A DNA stretch of 64,000 nt from Cellulosimicrobium composti (GTDB lineage: Bacteria; Actinomycetota; Actinomycetes; Actinomycetales; Cellulomonadaceae), in NCBI RefSeq assembly GCF_009711085.1, contig NZ_WMKA01000001.1, forward strand, positions 89,673 through 153,672, written 5' to 3'. The notes under the pieces are model-generated. The model made no database searches, was not told the DNA's origin, and was given only the letters and a program-made list of their open reading frames with translations. How positions within the stretch are numbered: position 1 is the first letter of the stretch; every line of letters starts with the position of its first letter. Below, piece after piece: positions 15,153 through 46,359 of this stretch. The position numbers and the translations under genes were made by a program.

Positions 15153-15160
15153 GCCGTGCG

Positions 15161-15250
15161 CGAGGTCGGCAGGTTCGGCCGACCTCGGCACTCGCTGGCG
15201 AGATCGGCGGTCCGGAGTGCCGATCTGGCCAGGGAGTGCCGATCTCGGGG
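15161..15250. repeat. Dispersed palindromic repeat cluster (family A, copy 1)
   Basis: This cluster of direct and inverted copies of a 10-13 bp word includes CGAGGTCGGCA, CGAGATCGGC, GAGTGCCGATC (twice) and TGCCGATCTCG. It lies between two converging genes (SRPBCC stop 15152 and PadR stop 15261). Nearly identical words form clusters at 40921-41009 and 42020-42110. It can fold into several alternative hairpins and may also end transcription. Confidence 0.7.
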
Positions 15251-15260
15251 CCCGGTGGGG

Positions 15261-16097
15261 TCAGGTGGTCGGCTCGTCCTCGACGGGGGCGTCCGCGACG
15301 GTCGGGCCCGCCAGGATGAGGTAGAGCTCGCGGCGCGTGCGCTCCAGGAGCTCGACGGCGGCCTTCGCCTCGGCGTCGGTGCCCGTGCGGGCGACCTGGT
15401 GGACCGCCGCGGCGACCGCCTCGACGGCTGCGCGCAGCTCACGCCGCGAGCGCCCGCCGCGACCTGCCGCGTCGGCGAACGGGTCGCCGAGCTCGGCCGC
15501 GTGCTCCGCGACGTACGCGGTGCCCGCCTCGGTGAGCGTCGCGAGACGACGCCCGCCGTCGGCCGAGAGCTCGACGAGCCCCTCGTCCTGGAGCAGGTTC
15601 AGGGCCGGGTAGACCGCGCCCGGGCTCGGGCGCCACTGGCCCTCGCTGCGCTCGGCGATCTCCTGGATGACCTGGTAGCCGTGCATGGGCTGCTCGGCGA
15701 GGAGCAGCAGGACGGCGGCGCGGACGTCGCCGCGGCCGGCGCGACCGGGGCCGCGACCGCGGCCCCCGTGGCGTCGACCGCCGTGACCCGGACCGAAGCC
15801 GGGCCCGCCGGGGCCGAAGCCCGGTCCGCCCGGTCCGCCCGGACCGAAGCCGGGCCCGCCGGGGCCGAAGCCCCGACCGCCGTCGGCGGGACCGCCGAAC
15901 CCGCGGCCTCCGCCGCGGCGTGCGCCGCCCCGACCGCGGGGGCCGTCGCCGCGGAACCAGGCCGCGTCGTCGGGCACGGGCGGGAAGCCGTCGCGACGGC
16001 GACGGCCGGGCCGCGGCCCGGGGCGCTCGCCGAACGGCTGGGACGTGTTCTGGGTGATGTCCGGGGTCCTGCCCCGGTGCTGGCGTGCGTAGCTCAT
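15261..16097 (-). CDS. PadR family transcriptional regulator with long Gly/Pro-rich N-terminus
   Basis: The 278-residue repressor has a PadR winged helix at about residues 125-205 (GDVRAAVLLLLAEQPMHGYQVIQEIAERS, then PSPGAVYPALNLLQDEGLVE) and a C-terminal helical region for dimerisation (about 225-260). About 120 N-terminal residues are low complexity, dominated by GFGPGGPG-type repeats and Arg/Gly, which is unusual for the family. ATG 16097 has AGGAG about 9 nt upstream. The 34-bp dyad in its own promoter strongly suggests autorepression. No target exporter lies immediately beside it. Confidence 0.92.
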   Translation of the reverse strand: MSYARQHRGRTPDITQNTSQPFGERPGPRPGRRRRDGFPPVPDDAAWFRGDGPRGRGGARRGGGRGFGGPADGGRGFGPGGPGFGPGGPGGPGFGPGGPGFGPGHGGRRHGGRGRGPGRAGRGDVRAAVLLLLAEQPMHGYQVIQEIAERSEGQWRPSPGAVYPALNLLQDEGLVELSADGGRRLATLTEAGTAYVAEHAAELGDPFADAAGRGGRSRRELRAAVEAVAAAVHQVARTGTDAEAKAAVELLERTRRELYLILAGPTVADAPVEDEPTT

Positions 16098-40879: not shown

Positions 40880-40920
40880 GCACCCCGTCGGCACGCCCTG
40901 CCCCGCCCGCCAGTCGCACG

Positions 40921-41009
40921 CGAGGTCGGCAGTCGGGGGTGAGGTCGGCAGTCGCACGTGCCGATGTCGGGTGGAACTGCCGACGTCGGGCACGACTGCC
41001 GATCTCGCG
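40921..41009. repeat. Dispersed palindromic repeat cluster (family A, copy 2)
   Basis: CGAGGTCGGCAGTC, TGAGGTCGGCAGTC, GTGCCGATGTC, ACTGCCGACGTC and ACTGCCGATCTCG occur within 89 nt, in both orientations. The cluster lies immediately upstream of the AbiEi/DUF559 gene, and a matching cluster lies right at that gene's 3' end. Confidence 0.75.
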
Positions 41010-41070
41010 TCGTCCACAGATCCCGGCACCGGGTACCGCGACGCCGCGCGGGACGGCACGATCGCTCGTC

Positions 41071-42023
41071 ATGCCGAGACCCGAGCCCGAGCACACCCTG
41101 CACCTCGCGCAGGAGCACCTGCCGGACGCCGTCCGACGGCACCTGGCCGACGGCGCGTGGGAACGGGTGCGGCGCGGTGCCTACCGGGACGCGCCACCGC
41201 CCGGCGTCCCGCCCGTCGTCGCCGCGCGGACCCTCGCGGTCGACCGGGCGCGCGCGGTCGGCCGTGGCCTGCGCCGCGACCCCGTCGTCAGCCACGCGTC
41301 CGCGGCGCTGCTGCACGGGCTGCCCCTGTGGGAGCTCCCCGCGACGACCCACGTGGTCCAGCCGTACCGCCGGTCGGGTTCCGCGGCGCGCGACGTGACG
41401 CGGCACGTCGGCGAGGTCGGCGCCGAGGACCGCGAGACCGTCCTCGGCGTCACGACGACCTCGCTCGTGCGCACGGTCGCGGACTGCCTGCGCACGATGC
41501 CCGCGCTCGACGGTCTCGTCGTCGCGGACGCGGCGCTGGCGAGGGGCGTGCGACGCTCGGAGGTCACGGCCGTCCTGGACCGCCGGCCGGGCGGTCGGGG
41601 GTCCCGCCGCTCCCGGCACGTGCTCGGGCTCGCGGACCCGGGCGCGGAGTCGGCCCGCGAGACCTGGCTGAGATACGTCCTCCTGCGGAGCGGTCTGCCA
41701 CGACCGGAGACGCAGGTGCCGCTGCGCACCGAGGTCGGCCCGGTGCGGGCGGACCTGGGGTGGCCGCGCTGGCGCCTGCTGCTGGAGTTCGACGGCCTCC
41801 TGAAGTACCGCACCGGGCCGGGCGGCGTCGCACCGCACGAGGATCCGGGCGCGTGCTCGTGCGGGAGAAGCTGCGGCAGGAGGCGATCGAGCGCACGGGG
41901 CACCGTCTGCTGCGCGTCACGGCGCGCGACCGGCCGTCGGACGTCGTGGCGCGGGTGCTCCGGCACGTCCCGGTCGACGTCGTCCGCGGCCTGCGACCCG
42001 ACCCTCGCCTACCCCCGGCGTGA
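41071..42023 (+). pseudogene. AbiEi-like / DUF559 endonuclease-fold protein, frameshifted
   Basis: From ATG 41071 the product shows an AbiEi-antitoxin-like region (DGAWERVRRGAYRDAPP; VVSHASAALLHGLPLWELP; RTVADCLRTMPALDGLVVADAAL) and then the DUF559/Vsr-like nuclease fold start (AESARETWLRYVLLRSGLPRPETQVPL, VRADLGWPRWRLLLEFDGLLKY). At about 41845-41853 the frame breaks. The expected continuation VLVREKLRQEAIERTGHRLLRVTARD is read one frame over and ends at 42023. Adding one C near 41850 (GGC-CGC-GTG) restores it. Left uncorrected, the frame runs on without a stop into the next gene. This could be a true mutation or an assembly error. Confidence 0.78.
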
Positions 42024-42110
42024 GATCGGCACTCCGGTCCGACGTCGGCACGCGCTGCCGAGATCGGCGGTCGGGACTGCCGATCTCGCTCGCGACCACC
42101 GATCTCGTGG
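42020..42110. repeat. Dispersed palindromic repeat cluster (family A, copy 3)
   Basis: TGAGATCGGCACTC, GACGTCGGCACG, CTGCCGAGATCGGCGGTC, ACTGCCGATCTCG and CACCGATCTCG occur within 91 nt. The cluster begins at the stop codon of the frameshifted DUF559 gene and ends about 15 nt before the promoter of the helicase-associated gene. Confidence 0.75.
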
Positions 42111-42125
42111 GACCCGGCCGACGCG

Positions 42126-42131
42126 TAGCAT
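42126..42131 (+). promoter_or_regulatory. -10 box of the helicase-associated gene (leaderless)
   Basis: TAGCAT is followed by 7 nt and the ATG at 42139. No ribosome site is seen in the 7-nt leader. Confidence 0.5.
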
Positions 42132-42138
42132 CGGACGG

Positions 42139-44619
42139 ATGGCCTCTTCCCGGCCCGAGCGGGCTCCGACGTACAGCGAGTCGCTGCGCCAGCGCGACGA
42201 CGCCGCGCTGGTCGCCCTGCTCGCACGCCGTCCGGACCTCGCGACGCCGTCGCCCTCGACGCTGCTCTCCCTCGCCGCGCGCGCGATGAACCGCACGAGC
42301 CTCGAACGGGCGCTCGCGTCGCTGGACGAGCTCGCGCTGCACGTCCTCGAGTCGGTCCTGGTGCTCGACTCGGTGGGCACCGCCGCGACCGCCGCGGCCG
42401 TCGCGCGCGCGACGGGGGTCGACCGGACGACCGTCGCGACGACGCTCGGACAGCTCGACGAGCGGGCGCTCGTCTGGTCACCGGGGCCGCGGTCGGCCGG
42501 GTTCCGCCCGGCACCGGGGATCGCGGAGGTGCTCGGCCCGCACCCCGCCGGTCTCGGTCCGGTCGACGCACCCCCGGGCGGCGCGTCGGCACCCGGCGGC
42601 GGGGCGCCGGGCACCCGGCCCCCGGGCGGCACGCGCGCGACACCGGACGGCGACCTGCCCGACGACGCGCCGCCGGGTGCGCGCGCGATCCTCGACGCCT
42701 TGGCCTGGGGCCCGCCCGTCGGCGTGGCGCCGCGCTCGGACCCGGCGGCCCGCCGCGCGACGGAGTGGCTCGTGGAGCACGGGTACCTGCGCGCGACGGA
42801 CGAGCGGCACGTCGTGCTCCCGGGGGAGGTCGGGCTCGCGCTGCGCGGCGGCCGCACCCACCGCGACGTGCGCACGACGCCGCCCGTCCCCGAGGTCCGG
42901 GAGCTCCCCGCGGCGACGGTGGACGCCGAGTCCGCGAGCGCCGGCATCGAGGCCGTGCGGCTCGTGGCGCGCCTCGTGACGCTCTGGACCGAGCACCCGC
43001 CGGGCGTCCTGCGCGCGGGCGGGCTCGGCGTGCGCGACCTGCGCCGCGCGGCCGTCGCGCTCGAGGTCGACGACCCGACGGCGGCCGCGGTGGTCGAGCT
43101 GGCCGCCGCGGCGGGCCTCGTCGCGGACGACGGCGACGACCCGCCGACGTTCGCCCCGACGCTCACGGCGGAGGACTGGCTCGACGACGACCTGGGCGAC
43201 CGGTGGGCGACGCTCGCGCGCGGCTGGTGGCGCTCGCGCCGCACGCCGTGGCTCGTGGGGAGCCGCGACGAGAAGGGGGCGCTGCGCGCCGCGCTGGACC
43301 CGGAGCTGTGGCGCCCGTGGGTGCCGCGGCTGCGCCGCTCGGTGCTCGACGTGCTCGCGCTCGCGCCGGGGCGCCCGCTCGCGGCCGCGGACGTGGTGGC
43401 GGTCCTGCGGTGGCGCACGCCGCGCGCCGTGCCGCCCGAGCAGGCGGTCGCGGGCCTGCTGCGCGAGGCGGCGCTGCTCGGGGTGACGGGCGCGGGAGCG
43501 CTCGCTCCCCCGGGCCGCGTGCTCGTCGCCGGCGACGACCCGGCGTCGTCGGAGCCCACGGACCTGGGCGCGGCGTTCGAGGCGGTGCTCCCGCCGGAGG
43601 TCGACGACCTCCTGCTCCAGGGCGACCTCACCGGCATCGTCCCCGGCCGCCCGTCCCGGGCGCTGGAACGGCTCGTGGAGGTCGCGGCCGACGTCGAGTC
43701 GCGCGGCGCCGCGACGACGGTGCGGTTCACCGCCGAGTCCGTGTTGCGTGCGCTCGACCGCGGTGCGACGGCCGACGAGCTGCTCGCCGACCTCGCCTCG
43801 CACTCGCGCACGCCGGTACCCCAGCCGCTCGAGTACCTGGTGCGGGACACGGCGCGGCGGCACGGGCGCGTGCGCGTGGGGACGGCGTCGTCGTACGTGC
43901 GTGCGGAGGACCCGGTGCTGCTCGCCGGGATCGCGGAGGACCCGGCGCTGCGCGGACTGGGGCTCGTCCTTCTCGCGCCGACCGTCCTCGTGTCGTCCGC
44001 CCCGGCGGGCGAGCTCCAGGAGGTGCTGCGCGCACGGGGCGTGCCGTCCGTCGTCGAGGGTCCGGACGGCCGCGTGCTGGTCGCGGAACGGGCGGGGCGC
44101 CGCGACGCGGCCGACGGCGCGGGGTCGGCCCGGCGGGGCCGGGTCGGTCGGCGCACGGCGGGGCGTTCGCGGACGGGCGTCGTCCCGGGGTCGGGCGTGC
44201 GTGCGGAGGAGCCGGCGGGCACCGGCGAGCAGCGGTTCGCCGACCTCGTCGCGCGCCTGCGCGCCGCCGACGCGCGGGGGGCCGAACAGGCCGGTCCGGG
44301 CCGCGCGGGCGAGGCCGGGAACGGTGCCGCCCGGTCGCGCGGGCTCGCGGCGGGCGGCGGTGGCCGCACCGCGGACCCCGGCCCCGAGGGAACAAGCGAC
44401 CCGGTCGCGGCGTTGGGGCTGCTGCGCGAGGCGATCGCGGACGGGGCGATGGTCTGGCTCGAGGTGGTCGGGCCGACGGGCTCGCCGGACCGGCGCCGCG
44501 TGCGACCCCTGACCCTCGACGCGGGGCGCCTGCGCGCGCAGGACCCGGCGCGCGACGCCGAGCTCACGGTCGCCGTGCACCGCATCGCGTCGGTCACGCC
44601 CGACGCCCCGCCGCGCTAG
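42139..44619 (+). CDS. Helicase-associated (XPB/Ssl2-like N-terminal, PF13625-type) protein
   Basis: The 826-residue actinobacterial protein is encoded directly before the XPB helicase and presumably acts with it in DNA repair. The N-terminus (SESLRQRDDAALVALLARRPDLATPSPSTLLSLAARAMNRTS) and an HTH-like LDSVGTAATAAAVARATGVDRTTVATTLGQL fit the family. The core at about 480-660 has LLLQGDLTGIVPGRPS, FTAESVLRALDRGATADELLADLASHSRTPVPQPLEYLV and RVRVGTASSYVRAEDPVLLAGI. A WYL-like region ends it (LREAIADGAMVWLEVV). Pro/Gly/Arg-rich inserts at about 135-180 and 655-755 are disordered. Start at ATG 42139, supported by TAGCAT. Confidence 0.85.
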   Translation: MASSRPERAPTYSESLRQRDDAALVALLARRPDLATPSPSTLLSLAARAMNRTSLERALASLDELALHVLESVLVLDSVGTAATAAAVARATGVDRTTVATTLGQLDERALVWSPGPRSAGFRPAPGIAEVLGPHPAGLGPVDAPPGGASAPGGGAPGTRPPGGTRATPDGDLPDDAPPGARAILDALAWGPPVGVAPRSDPAARRATEWLVEHGYLRATDERHVVLPGEVGLALRGGRTHRDVRTTPPVPEVRELPAATVDAESASAGIEAVRLVARLVTLWTEHPPGVLRAGGLGVRDLRRAAVALEVDDPTAAAVVELAAAAGLVADDGDDPPTFAPTLTAEDWLDDDLGDRWATLARGWWRSRRTPWLVGSRDEKGALRAALDPELWRPWVPRLRRSVLDVLALAPGRPLAAADVVAVLRWRTPRAVPPEQAVAGLLREAALLGVTGAGALAPPGRVLVAGDDPASSEPTDLGAAFEAVLPPEVDDLLLQGDLTGIVPGRPSRALERLVEVAADVESRGAATTVRFTAESVLRALDRGATADELLADLASHSRTPVPQPLEYLVRDTARRHGRVRVGTASSYVRAEDPVLLAGIAEDPALRGLGLVLLAPTVLVSSAPAGELQEVLRARGVPSVVEGPDGRVLVAERAGRRDAADGAGSARRGRVGRRTAGRSRTGVVPGSGVRAEEPAGTGEQRFADLVARLRAADARGAEQAGPGRAGEAGNGAARSRGLAAGGGGRTADPGPEGTSDPVAALGLLREAIADGAMVWLEVVGPTGSPDRRRVRPLTLDAGRLRAQDPARDAELTVAVHRIASVTPDAPPR

Positions 44620-44679: not shown

Positions 44680-46359
44680 ATGACCGACGGACCCCTCATC
44701 GTCCAGAGCGACAAGTCGCTCCTGCTCGAGGTGGACCACCCGCGCGCCGACGACGCGCGCCGGGCGATCGCGCCGTTCGCCGAGCTCGAGCGCGCCCCGG
44801 AGCACGTCCACACGTACCGGCTCACGCCGCTGGGTCTGTGGAACGCGCGGGCCGCCGGGCACGACGCCGAGCAGGTCGTCAACACGCTCATCGAGTACTC
44901 GCGCTACCCGGTGCCGCACGCGCTGCTCATCGACGTCGCGGAGACGATGTCCCGCTACGGGCGGCTCACGCTCGCGCAGCACCCGACGCACGGGCTCGTG
45001 CTCGAGGCCACCGACCGCGCCGTGCTCGCCGAGGTGCTCAAGTCCAAGCGCACCGCGGGCCTCGTGGGCGACCGGATCGACGACACGACCGTCGTCGTGC
45101 ACCCGTCCGAGCGCGGCCACCTCAAGCAGGTCCTCGTGAAGCTCGGCTGGCCCGCCGAGGACCTCGCGGGGTACGTCGACGGCGAGAAGCACCCCATCGC
45201 ACTGAGCCCGACGACGCCGCCGCGCGCCGAGGGCGAGGAGCCGAAGCCCTGGGAGATGCGGCCGTACCAGGCGCAGGCGGTGGACGGGTTCTGGCACGGC
45301 GGGAGCGGCGTCGTCGTGCTCCCGTGCGGTGCGGGCAAGACGATCGTCGGCGCGGGCGCGATGGCGAGGTCCGGGACGACGACCCTCATCCTCGTGACGA
45401 ACACCGTGAGCGCGCGCCAGTGGCGCGACGAGCTCGTGCGGCGCACGACGCTCACCGAGGACGAGATCGGCGAGTACTCCGGCGCGCGCAAGGAGATCAA
45501 GCCCGTCACGATCGCGACCTACCAGGTGCTGACGACCAAGCGGAAGGGCGTGTACACGCACCTCGAGCTGCTCGACGCGCGTGACTGGGGCCTCGTCGTC
45601 TACGACGAGGTGCACCTGCTGCCCGCGCCGATCTTCCGCATGACCGCGGACCTGCAGGCGCGCCGCCGCCTCGGGCTCACCGCGACGCTCGTGCGCGAGG
45701 ACGGCCGGGAGGACGAGGTGTTCTCGCTCATCGGGCCCAAGCGGTACGACGCGCCGTGGAAGGACATCGAGGCGCAGGGGTACATCGCGCCCGCCGACTG
45801 CGTCGAGGTGCGCCTCACCCTGCCGGAGTCCGACCGCATGACATACGCCGTCGCCGAGCCGGAGGACAAGTACCGCCTCGCCGCCACGGCCACGGGCAAG
45901 CACCGGGTCGTCGAGCAGATCGTCGCGCAGCACCCGGACGACCAGGTGCTCGTCATCGGGCAGTACCTCGACCAGCTCGAGGAGCTCTCGAACCACCTCG
46001 ACGCGCCGCTCATCACGGGCGCGACGACCGTCCGCGAGCGCCAGCGCCTGTTCGACGCGTTCCGCACGGGCGAGATCTCGCGGCTCGTCGTGTCGAAGGT
46101 CGCGAACTTCTCCATCGACCTGCCCGAGGCGTCCGTCGCGATCCAGGTCTCCGGGTCGTTCGGGTCGCGCCAGGAGGAGGCCCAGCGTCTCGGCCGCGTC
46201 ATGCGCCCCAAGGCCGACGGCCGGACGGCGCACTTCTACGCCGTCGTCGCGCGCGACACCGTGGACCAGGACTTCGCGGCCCACCGGCAGCGGTTCCTGG
46301 CGGAGCAGGGGTACGCCTACCGCATCGTCGACGCGGAGGACCTGGGCGTCGTGCAGTAG
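44680..46359 (+). CDS. DNA repair helicase, XPB/Ssl2 type
   Basis: This 3'-to-5' DNA helicase (bacterial XPB) probably takes part in nucleotide-excision-type repair. The 559-residue protein has an N-terminal damage-recognition-like domain (about 1-190), Walker A LPCGAGKT (214-221), DEVH box (309-312), GLTATLVREDGRED with the XPB RED element (about 332-344), and a helicase C-terminal domain with QVSGSFGSRQEEAQRLGRVMRPK. AAGGAGA lies close before the ATG. It follows the helicase-associated gene by 60 nt in one transcription unit. A hairpin at 46447-46472 ends it. Confidence 0.95.
   Translation: MTDGPLIVQSDKSLLLEVDHPRADDARRAIAPFAELERAPEHVHTYRLTPLGLWNARAAGHDAEQVVNTLIEYSRYPVPHALLIDVAETMSRYGRLTLAQHPTHGLVLEATDRAVLAEVLKSKRTAGLVGDRIDDTTVVVHPSERGHLKQVLVKLGWPAEDLAGYVDGEKHPIALSPTTPPRAEGEEPKPWEMRPYQAQAVDGFWHGGSGVVVLPCGAGKTIVGAGAMARSGTTTLILVTNTVSARQWRDELVRRTTLTEDEIGEYSGARKEIKPVTIATYQVLTTKRKGVYTHLELLDARDWGLVVYDEVHLLPAPIFRMTADLQARRRLGLTATLVREDGREDEVFSLIGPKRYDAPWKDIEAQGYIAPADCVEVRLTLPESDRMTYAVAEPEDKYRLAATATGKHRVVEQIVAQHPDDQVLVIGQYLDQLEELSNHLDAPLITGATTVRERQRLFDAFRTGEISRLVVSKVANFSIDLPEASVAIQVSGSFGSRQEEAQRLGRVMRPKADGRTAHFYAVVARDTVDQDFAAHRQRFLAEQGYAYRIVDAEDLGVVQ

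Follow-up and report, generated by a model that had tools for sequence, protein, structure and literature searches.

The window, which here means the whole 64,000-nt stretch of DNA that was analysed, carries an AbiEi-Vsr gene of the DUF559 type between an epimerase gene and a helicase-associated gene. The features of this locus, together with one related element elsewhere in the window, are the following:

40916-41012, no strand assigned: upstream palindromic element with GA[GC][AG]TCGGCA units at 19-nt spacing, two forward and then three reverse (single-stranded DNA fold, z -7.1)
41013-41019, + strand: TCCACAG, a DnaA-box-like site located 58 nt 5' of the start codon, at a position conserved in much of the family
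41071-42023, + strand: AbiEi-Vsr (DUF559-type) gene, broken, with its N-terminal part (41071-41847) in one frame, its C-terminal part (about 41853-42020) in another and its stop at 42021-42023
41846-41853, + strand: net loss of one base, from DNA alignment against 9/9 same-genus orthologues
42018-42110, no strand assigned: downstream palindromic element with closely similar units at 19-nt spacing, the first of which overlaps the stop codon (z -2.8)
42123-42133, + strand: GCGTAGCATCG, promoter-like box of the helicase-associated gene, conserved among loci
42139-44619, + strand: helicase-associated gene (Helicase_C_3, PF13625), distinct from the preceding gene and joined to it at the ORF level only
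44680-46359, + strand: DNA repair helicase XPB (NF045503, E 1.8e-261)
15156-15250, no strand assigned: lone copy of an element of the same class, with no such gene beside it (z -7.9)

The helicase-associated gene comes after the AbiEi-Vsr gene in all nine same-genus orthologues. A GCGTARCATCG box is found immediately 5' of its ATG in the window and in 11/11 Cellulosimicrobium-type loci (L021-L030 and L044), and this conservation suggests that the gene, located upstream of the XPB helicase, may have its own promoter. Where the cassette is present at the window locus, the intergenic distance is 1244-1477 nt (five loci measured); cassette-free alleles have 51 (L022), 51 (L024) and 103 nt (L029), and L025, also without the cassette, has 106 nt and keeps one lone palindrome. 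Recent transposition of the gene itself is unsupported, since the same downstream gene is found in nine genomes, though empty alleles exist. One record at this locus, titled Sphaerisporangium cinnabarinum ATCC 31213 (L023, QAPD01000044.1), encodes a helicase-associated protein 86% identical to that of the window; the protein resembles Cellulosimicrobium records, and the title looks mislabelled.

The interrupted AbiEi-Vsr reading frame

A preliminary description of this DNA had placed a one-base frameshift within 41840-41860, with the AbiEi/DUF559 pattern running to about 41850 and the expected VREKLRQEAIERTGHRLLRV lying beyond it in another frame. Translation and comparison with nine same-genus orthologues (L002-L010, of which L002 and L003 are almost identical) bear this out. 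The translation from 41071 is family-like to about residue 259 and diverges afterwards, and VREKLRQEAIERTGHRLLRV is encoded in a different frame of the same strand, with its stop TGA at 42021-42023. Alignment with the intact family proteins, proposed in that description as a check, found both parts in a single frame in 9/9 of these orthologues, and their nuclease genes stop 58-67 codons past the junction. In the DNA alignment against all nine, the window has a single gap, one base long, within 41846-41853, and this net change of -1 base supports the earlier proposal that the loss of a single base accounts for the split reading. A family match was found in 35 of the 39 genomes searched, the window's own included.

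The preliminary description had also remarked that the unshifted frame stays open through to 44619, so that an automatic caller could report a giant fusion. The frame is indeed open, from 39865 (1584 aa), and a simple coding-score caller returned an ORF of 1182 aa at 41071-44619. A genuine 1182-aa protein that combines the AbiEi part with the helicase-associated protein would fit the open frame across the junction, but it is very improbable: fused homologues, which would have refuted the frameshift, number 0/9 among the same-genus orthologues, in all nine of which a stop codon ends the nuclease gene; the linker is an out-of-frame translation of the conserved nuclease end plus intergenic DNA; and the helicase-associated gene has its own conserved promoter-like box. 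Moreover, the stretch of 97 codons that leads from the junction to the start of the helicase-associated gene was free of stops in 38% of Markov simulations (a chance expectation of 0.38), so an open frame running into that gene is unremarkable. Reading the giant fusion as an artefact at the ORF level is supported.

Whether the lesion exists in the organism is a separate question. A scan for changes of frame against the syntenic genes of G016 found this one among 47 genes (17,028 codons), and the scan against G011 found the same single lesion among 48 (17,142 codons); the scan was limited to genes with a match of at least 60% identity and is blind to changes near gene ends. Third positions account for most of the differences from three orthologues, with dN/dS at 0.2-0.4 before as well as after the junction; because constraint is similar in the two parts, the lesion either arose very recently or is a sequence error. 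That the assembly or the sequencing is at fault, with the gene intact in the organism, is suggested by the draft state of the assembly (150 contigs), by the local G+C content of 77-79% and by the presence of a single lesion in a gene whose two parts are similarly constrained. It is opposed by the absence of any other frame change in either of the two comparisons (47 and 48 genes; about 17,000 codons per comparison), since a lesion that is the sole frame change points to a low error rate in the window. The frameshift is present in the assembled sequence; without reads, a true mutation and an assembly error cannot be told apart, and the odds are about even. Programmed frameshifting was rejected, with 9/9 orthologues in a single frame and no slippery heptamer seen by eye at the site, as was an old pseudogene, given the lone lesion and the similar dN/dS on either side.

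If the mutation is true, the product would lose all sequence beyond residue 259; in the model of orthologue L002 this takes in a helix (259-275) and a strand (279-284) of the nuclease domain. R269 and R282, both past the frameshift point, are invariant in 50/50 aligned members. The frameshift as such is ordinary, and the repeats around the gene, which the preliminary description had overlooked, are of greater weight.

Predicted folds and distribution of the family

The intact orthologue L002 was modelled with AlphaFold from an alignment of 21 sequences (pLDDT 89.9, pTM 0.87). Residues 6-189 of the model correspond to AbiEi (6y8q, Z 11.7), and the N-terminal fold also matches Rv2827c (1zel, Z 7.8); residues 194-305 correspond to the homing endonuclease I-Bth0305I (3r3p, Z 10.7) and residues 192-302 to Vsr (1cw0, Z 9.2), and the C-terminal fold also matches a second Vsr structure (1vsr, Z 8.2). 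These VIA-align scores call for caution, as Z 7-8 is the typical best for unrelated models, and the Vsr score of 9.2 barely exceeds those of mitoribosome entries (9.1 and 8.9). Foldseek alone was weak (6y8q, E 4.6e-4; 1cw0, E 0.021; 3r3p, E 3.1). The PADLOC AbiEi profiles match 5/5 members tested, with a best E of 1.5e-14 for L002. For the Pfam profile DUF559 (PF04480), L153 scores 21.5 against a gathering cut-off of 20.6, L013 and L016 fall under the cut-off, no match is listed for the other four of the seven members scanned, and none is found in the window's own reading. At an E cut-off of 0.1, none of seven family members matched a Y1 transposase in Pfam. The candidate catalytic residues E197, D228, E239, D241 and K245 are invariant in 50/50 aligned members. 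On the evidence of the model, the predicted gene product is shown to be an AbiEi-type wHTH DNA-binding domain joined to a nuclease of the Vsr/EDxHD fold.

Across the class Actinomycetes, 148 genomes were sampled, of which 103 had a family match. The AbiEi-Vsr gene is solitary, with no adjacent co-directional AbiEii toxin gene: of the 27 class-wide loci having a downstream neighbour, 23 have it on the opposite strand, and no AbiEii (DUF1814) partner was found among seven neighbours scanned (four co-directional and three others), all of which belong to other families.

Palindromic elements beside the gene and elsewhere

Unit pairs of the GA[GC][AG]TCGGCA type are found in 16/17 genomes of the genus (G003 had a single hit), with 41 in the window's own genome and 0 matches to a reversed-pattern control. 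From the list for the window's own genome, for which the reversed-pattern control gave 1 match, 14 places outside the window were picked by hand; 10 pass the three-unit rule, and L141, L144, L148 and L152 fail it. As for folding, 2/200 shuffles of the downstream element (42018-42110) fold as well as the element itself. No array was seen in G016 and G011 at the place syntenic to the lone element; the intergenic region that holds it (15153-15303) does not align with either genome, and their syntenic stretch contains a different hairpin, CGAACCCGGG.

The array cores around other members differ, several of them with 19-nt spacing (GAGCGCTGCGTC, GAGTTCGGCA, GCACGTCCGTTCC and more). Pairs of GAGTTCGGCA number 17 in G017, 16 in G019 and 0 in four others. 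Pairs of GCTGCGTC are found in the five genomes in which a gene flanked in this way was recognised, with 24 in G006 (one flank only), 21 in G003, 15 in G009 and 5 each in G004 and G014, and ten other genus genomes have 0-4; the reversed-pattern control gave 2 matches, one each in G005 and G014. G007 and G001 have 13 and 6 such pairs without a matching gene being found, and their elements may be orphaned, or the gene may have been lost or missed. G009 and G004 contain elements of the GATCGGC type, yet the best family member there is flanked by GCTGCGTC repeats. Because of these mismatches, elements can be said to outlive, or to lack, a found partner.

A 164-aa ORF in G016 (L101:9711-10205), GNAT-like by eye only, is flanked by a further palindrome family, GAGGTAGAGCCCTGG, which also occurs 3' of a second AbiEi-Vsr gene of the window's own genome (L153, G000:C140), so several element families coexist. 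L184 and L186, from different taxonomic families, both have the AbiEi-Vsr gene 5' of a DUF3151 gene with repeat sequences that are unlike; as the neighbour is common and the repeats differ, the place of the gene can be old while the repeats change.

The agreement between the two flanks of the gene was scored as the best ungapped similarity, in both orientations, between the 220 nt upstream and the 220 nt downstream, with a threshold of at least 20. Of 53 family loci examined, 52 were scored, namely 19 from relatives, 5 that are further family members from genomes of the genus and 28 of the 29 loci of a class-wide set; L183 was left out of these counts and of those for TCCACA below because its upstream stretch was incomplete. 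The threshold was reached by 42/52 family loci (27/28 in the class-wide set), against 4/349 control genes and 4/209 mismatched pairings of upstream and downstream sequence. Ten loci (L002, L003, L009, L010, L011, L012, L014, L153, L154 and L192) score below 20, several of which still have palindromes by eye. The class-wide set is not a random draw, since it is composed of the best-scoring 29 loci from the 103 genomes with a match among the 148, and the family loci are not independent, several being close relatives. The controls are genes of three G016 stretches and of the 70 loci (L031-L100) that surround helicase-associated orthologues; they are often mutually related, and the highest control score belongs to L044, itself a family member. 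An earlier count of k-mers per flank against Markov shuffles gave no signal separable from background and was superseded by the upstream-downstream comparison. Within these limits, the Actinomycetes members are shown to lie mostly between two copies of a gene-specific element with dyad symmetry.

The TCCACA motif is found within 220 nt upstream in 44/52 members against 8/349 controls (22/28 class-wide). It starts 55-60 nt before the start codon in 35/52 members by hand count, often with a second copy near 87, and it is placed between the element and the gene; in G181 it is outside the dispersed part. The motif resembles a DnaA box, whose consensus in high-G+C actinobacteria is TTGTCCACA; it is possible that another conserved regulator recognises the site instead of DnaA.

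Dispersal was examined with one flanking element from each of three genomes, G164 (101 nt), G181 (84 nt) and G090 (88 nt), searched in one and the same set of eight congeneric genomes, made up of its own and seven congeners. Counting by hand the places of at least 60 nt, the own genomes contain 7 (G164), at least 39 (G181) and 24 (G090), of which two each flank the gene, leaving 5, at least 37 and 22 further places, respectively; the value for G181 is a lower bound, with 40 of 50 first-look candidates scored. No match of at least 60 nt at 80% identity was found in the seven congeners of each. The further G181 copies are 82-98% identical, and the twenty inspected have both ends sharp, with unrelated flanks. 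Twenty G090 copies have a sharp left end and a right end of two kinds, one seen in 16 copies and the other in 4. At full length, the 115 nt that separate the G181 element from the start codon are single-copy, other hits being of 33 nt or less. Among 40 solo copies from G181 and G090, 18 are flanked by two 3' ends and 2 by two 5' ends, one falls within an ORF call, and the median distances to a 3' end are 20 and 15 nt in the two sets. No target-site duplication was recognised by eye at the element copies. The flanking element is thus shown to be dispersed also without the gene, in 3/3 genomes tested and in the genus of the window.

Known systems, alternative readings and significance

The nearest known kind is the REPIN-RAYT pair, which the present system resembles by analogy, with what would be an unrelated enzyme. 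RAYT tyrosine transposases are the proposed partners of one large group of REPs, in REP-associated systems termed REPtrons or TIRtrons, and a CGTC-tagged REP super-family apparently has no dedicated transposase (PMC3733652). The likeness lies in a gene flanked by palindromic repeats that are also dispersed intergenically, mostly 3' of coding regions or between convergent genes (PMC3733652). The AbiEi-Vsr protein differs in its domains, AbiEi and a nuclease of the Vsr/EDxHD fold, with no Pfam match to the HUH/Y1 tyrosine transposase domain in the seven members scanned, and its system has arrays of 19-nt units (in several clades) and the TCCACA site at about -58. As with the AbiE systems of type IV toxin-antitoxins, there is an AbiEi antitoxin fold with matches to the PADLOC AbiEi profiles, but here with an extra nuclease domain and with no AbiEii family among the seven neighbours scanned. 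With Vsr and I-Bth0305I the likeness is in the C-terminal fold, and the difference is that the nuclease is fused to an AbiEi domain and located between dispersed palindromic elements. Vsr goes with the Dcm methyltransferase, and EDxHD nucleases go with introns; RAYT genes are mostly inherited vertically. In the open-access literature, searched by title and start of abstract, no paper was found that connects dispersed palindromic repeats with DUF559, AbiEi or Vsr-like proteins.

Here it is proposed, with a probability of roughly 0.6, that the locus holds a frameshifted AbiEi-Vsr gene whose relatives are paired with dispersed elements in a REPIN-RAYT-like way, the action on the elements and their mobilisation being inferred. 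The AbiEi domain would bind the repeated units, and the Vsr domain would nick or cut the hairpin element; the protein would thereby have copied or moved small elements, making a REPIN-RAYT-like pair from an unrelated enzyme. The DnaA-box-like site at about -58 may tie expression to replication. Should the frameshift be a true mutation, this strain would lack the end of the nuclease domain, and its element family would now be without this partner. The association of the gene with the repeats is shown, and mobilisation is inferred, as no movement was directly seen. As a counterpoint to mobility, the gene itself looks vertically stable at the window locus, judging from its neighbourhood.

The chief rival is an operator model, in which the elements are sites of an autoregulating AbiEi-type repressor, the two flanking copies controls of the gene, the dispersed copies a regulon or decoys, and the nuclease domain unrelated. 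AbiEi and Rv2827c each bind multiple inverted repeats of 23 bp located 5' of the gene that encodes them, with autoregulation reported for Rv2827c (PMC7319586), and both the AbiEi fold of the N-terminal part and the regular 19-nt spacing of units in several members agree with such a role. Most members, however, have a matching element 3' of the gene too, the dispersed copies are chiefly 3' of genes and not in promoters, and the nuclease residues are invariant in 50/50 members; the 37 or more further copies in G181, with their high identity and the sharp ends of the 20 inspected, indicate spread rather than convergent operators. This model is considered unlikely, though it cannot be dismissed. 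A still less probable account takes the elements as ordinary bidirectional terminators or 3' hairpins that surround a poorly expressed solitary gene by chance. Their hairpin folding (four tested) and their position just 3' of stop codons would suit terminators, but flanks that match across a gene are rare elsewhere (4/349 controls), the element sequence is gene- and genome-specific in three cases, and an element is also found 5' of the start. The reading of the gene as a partner of the repeats is preferred to both. Its widest form, held at somewhat less than even odds, would be an undescribed class of bacterial mobile DNA, in which palindromic miniature elements with gene-specific sequences, widespread in Actinomycetes, are spread by AbiEi-Vsr nucleases of no known transposase type, with DnaA-gated expression timing their processing to replication.

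Bacterial genomes commonly contain short palindromic repeats (REPs). The strain of the window would be a natural loss-of-function case if its frameshift is a true mutation. If AbiEi-Vsr proteins are the partners of the repeats, a function would be found for a common family of "uncharacterised antitoxin/endonuclease" proteins in Actinomycetes, and it would become testable where the dispersed hairpins in Actinomycetes genomes come from.
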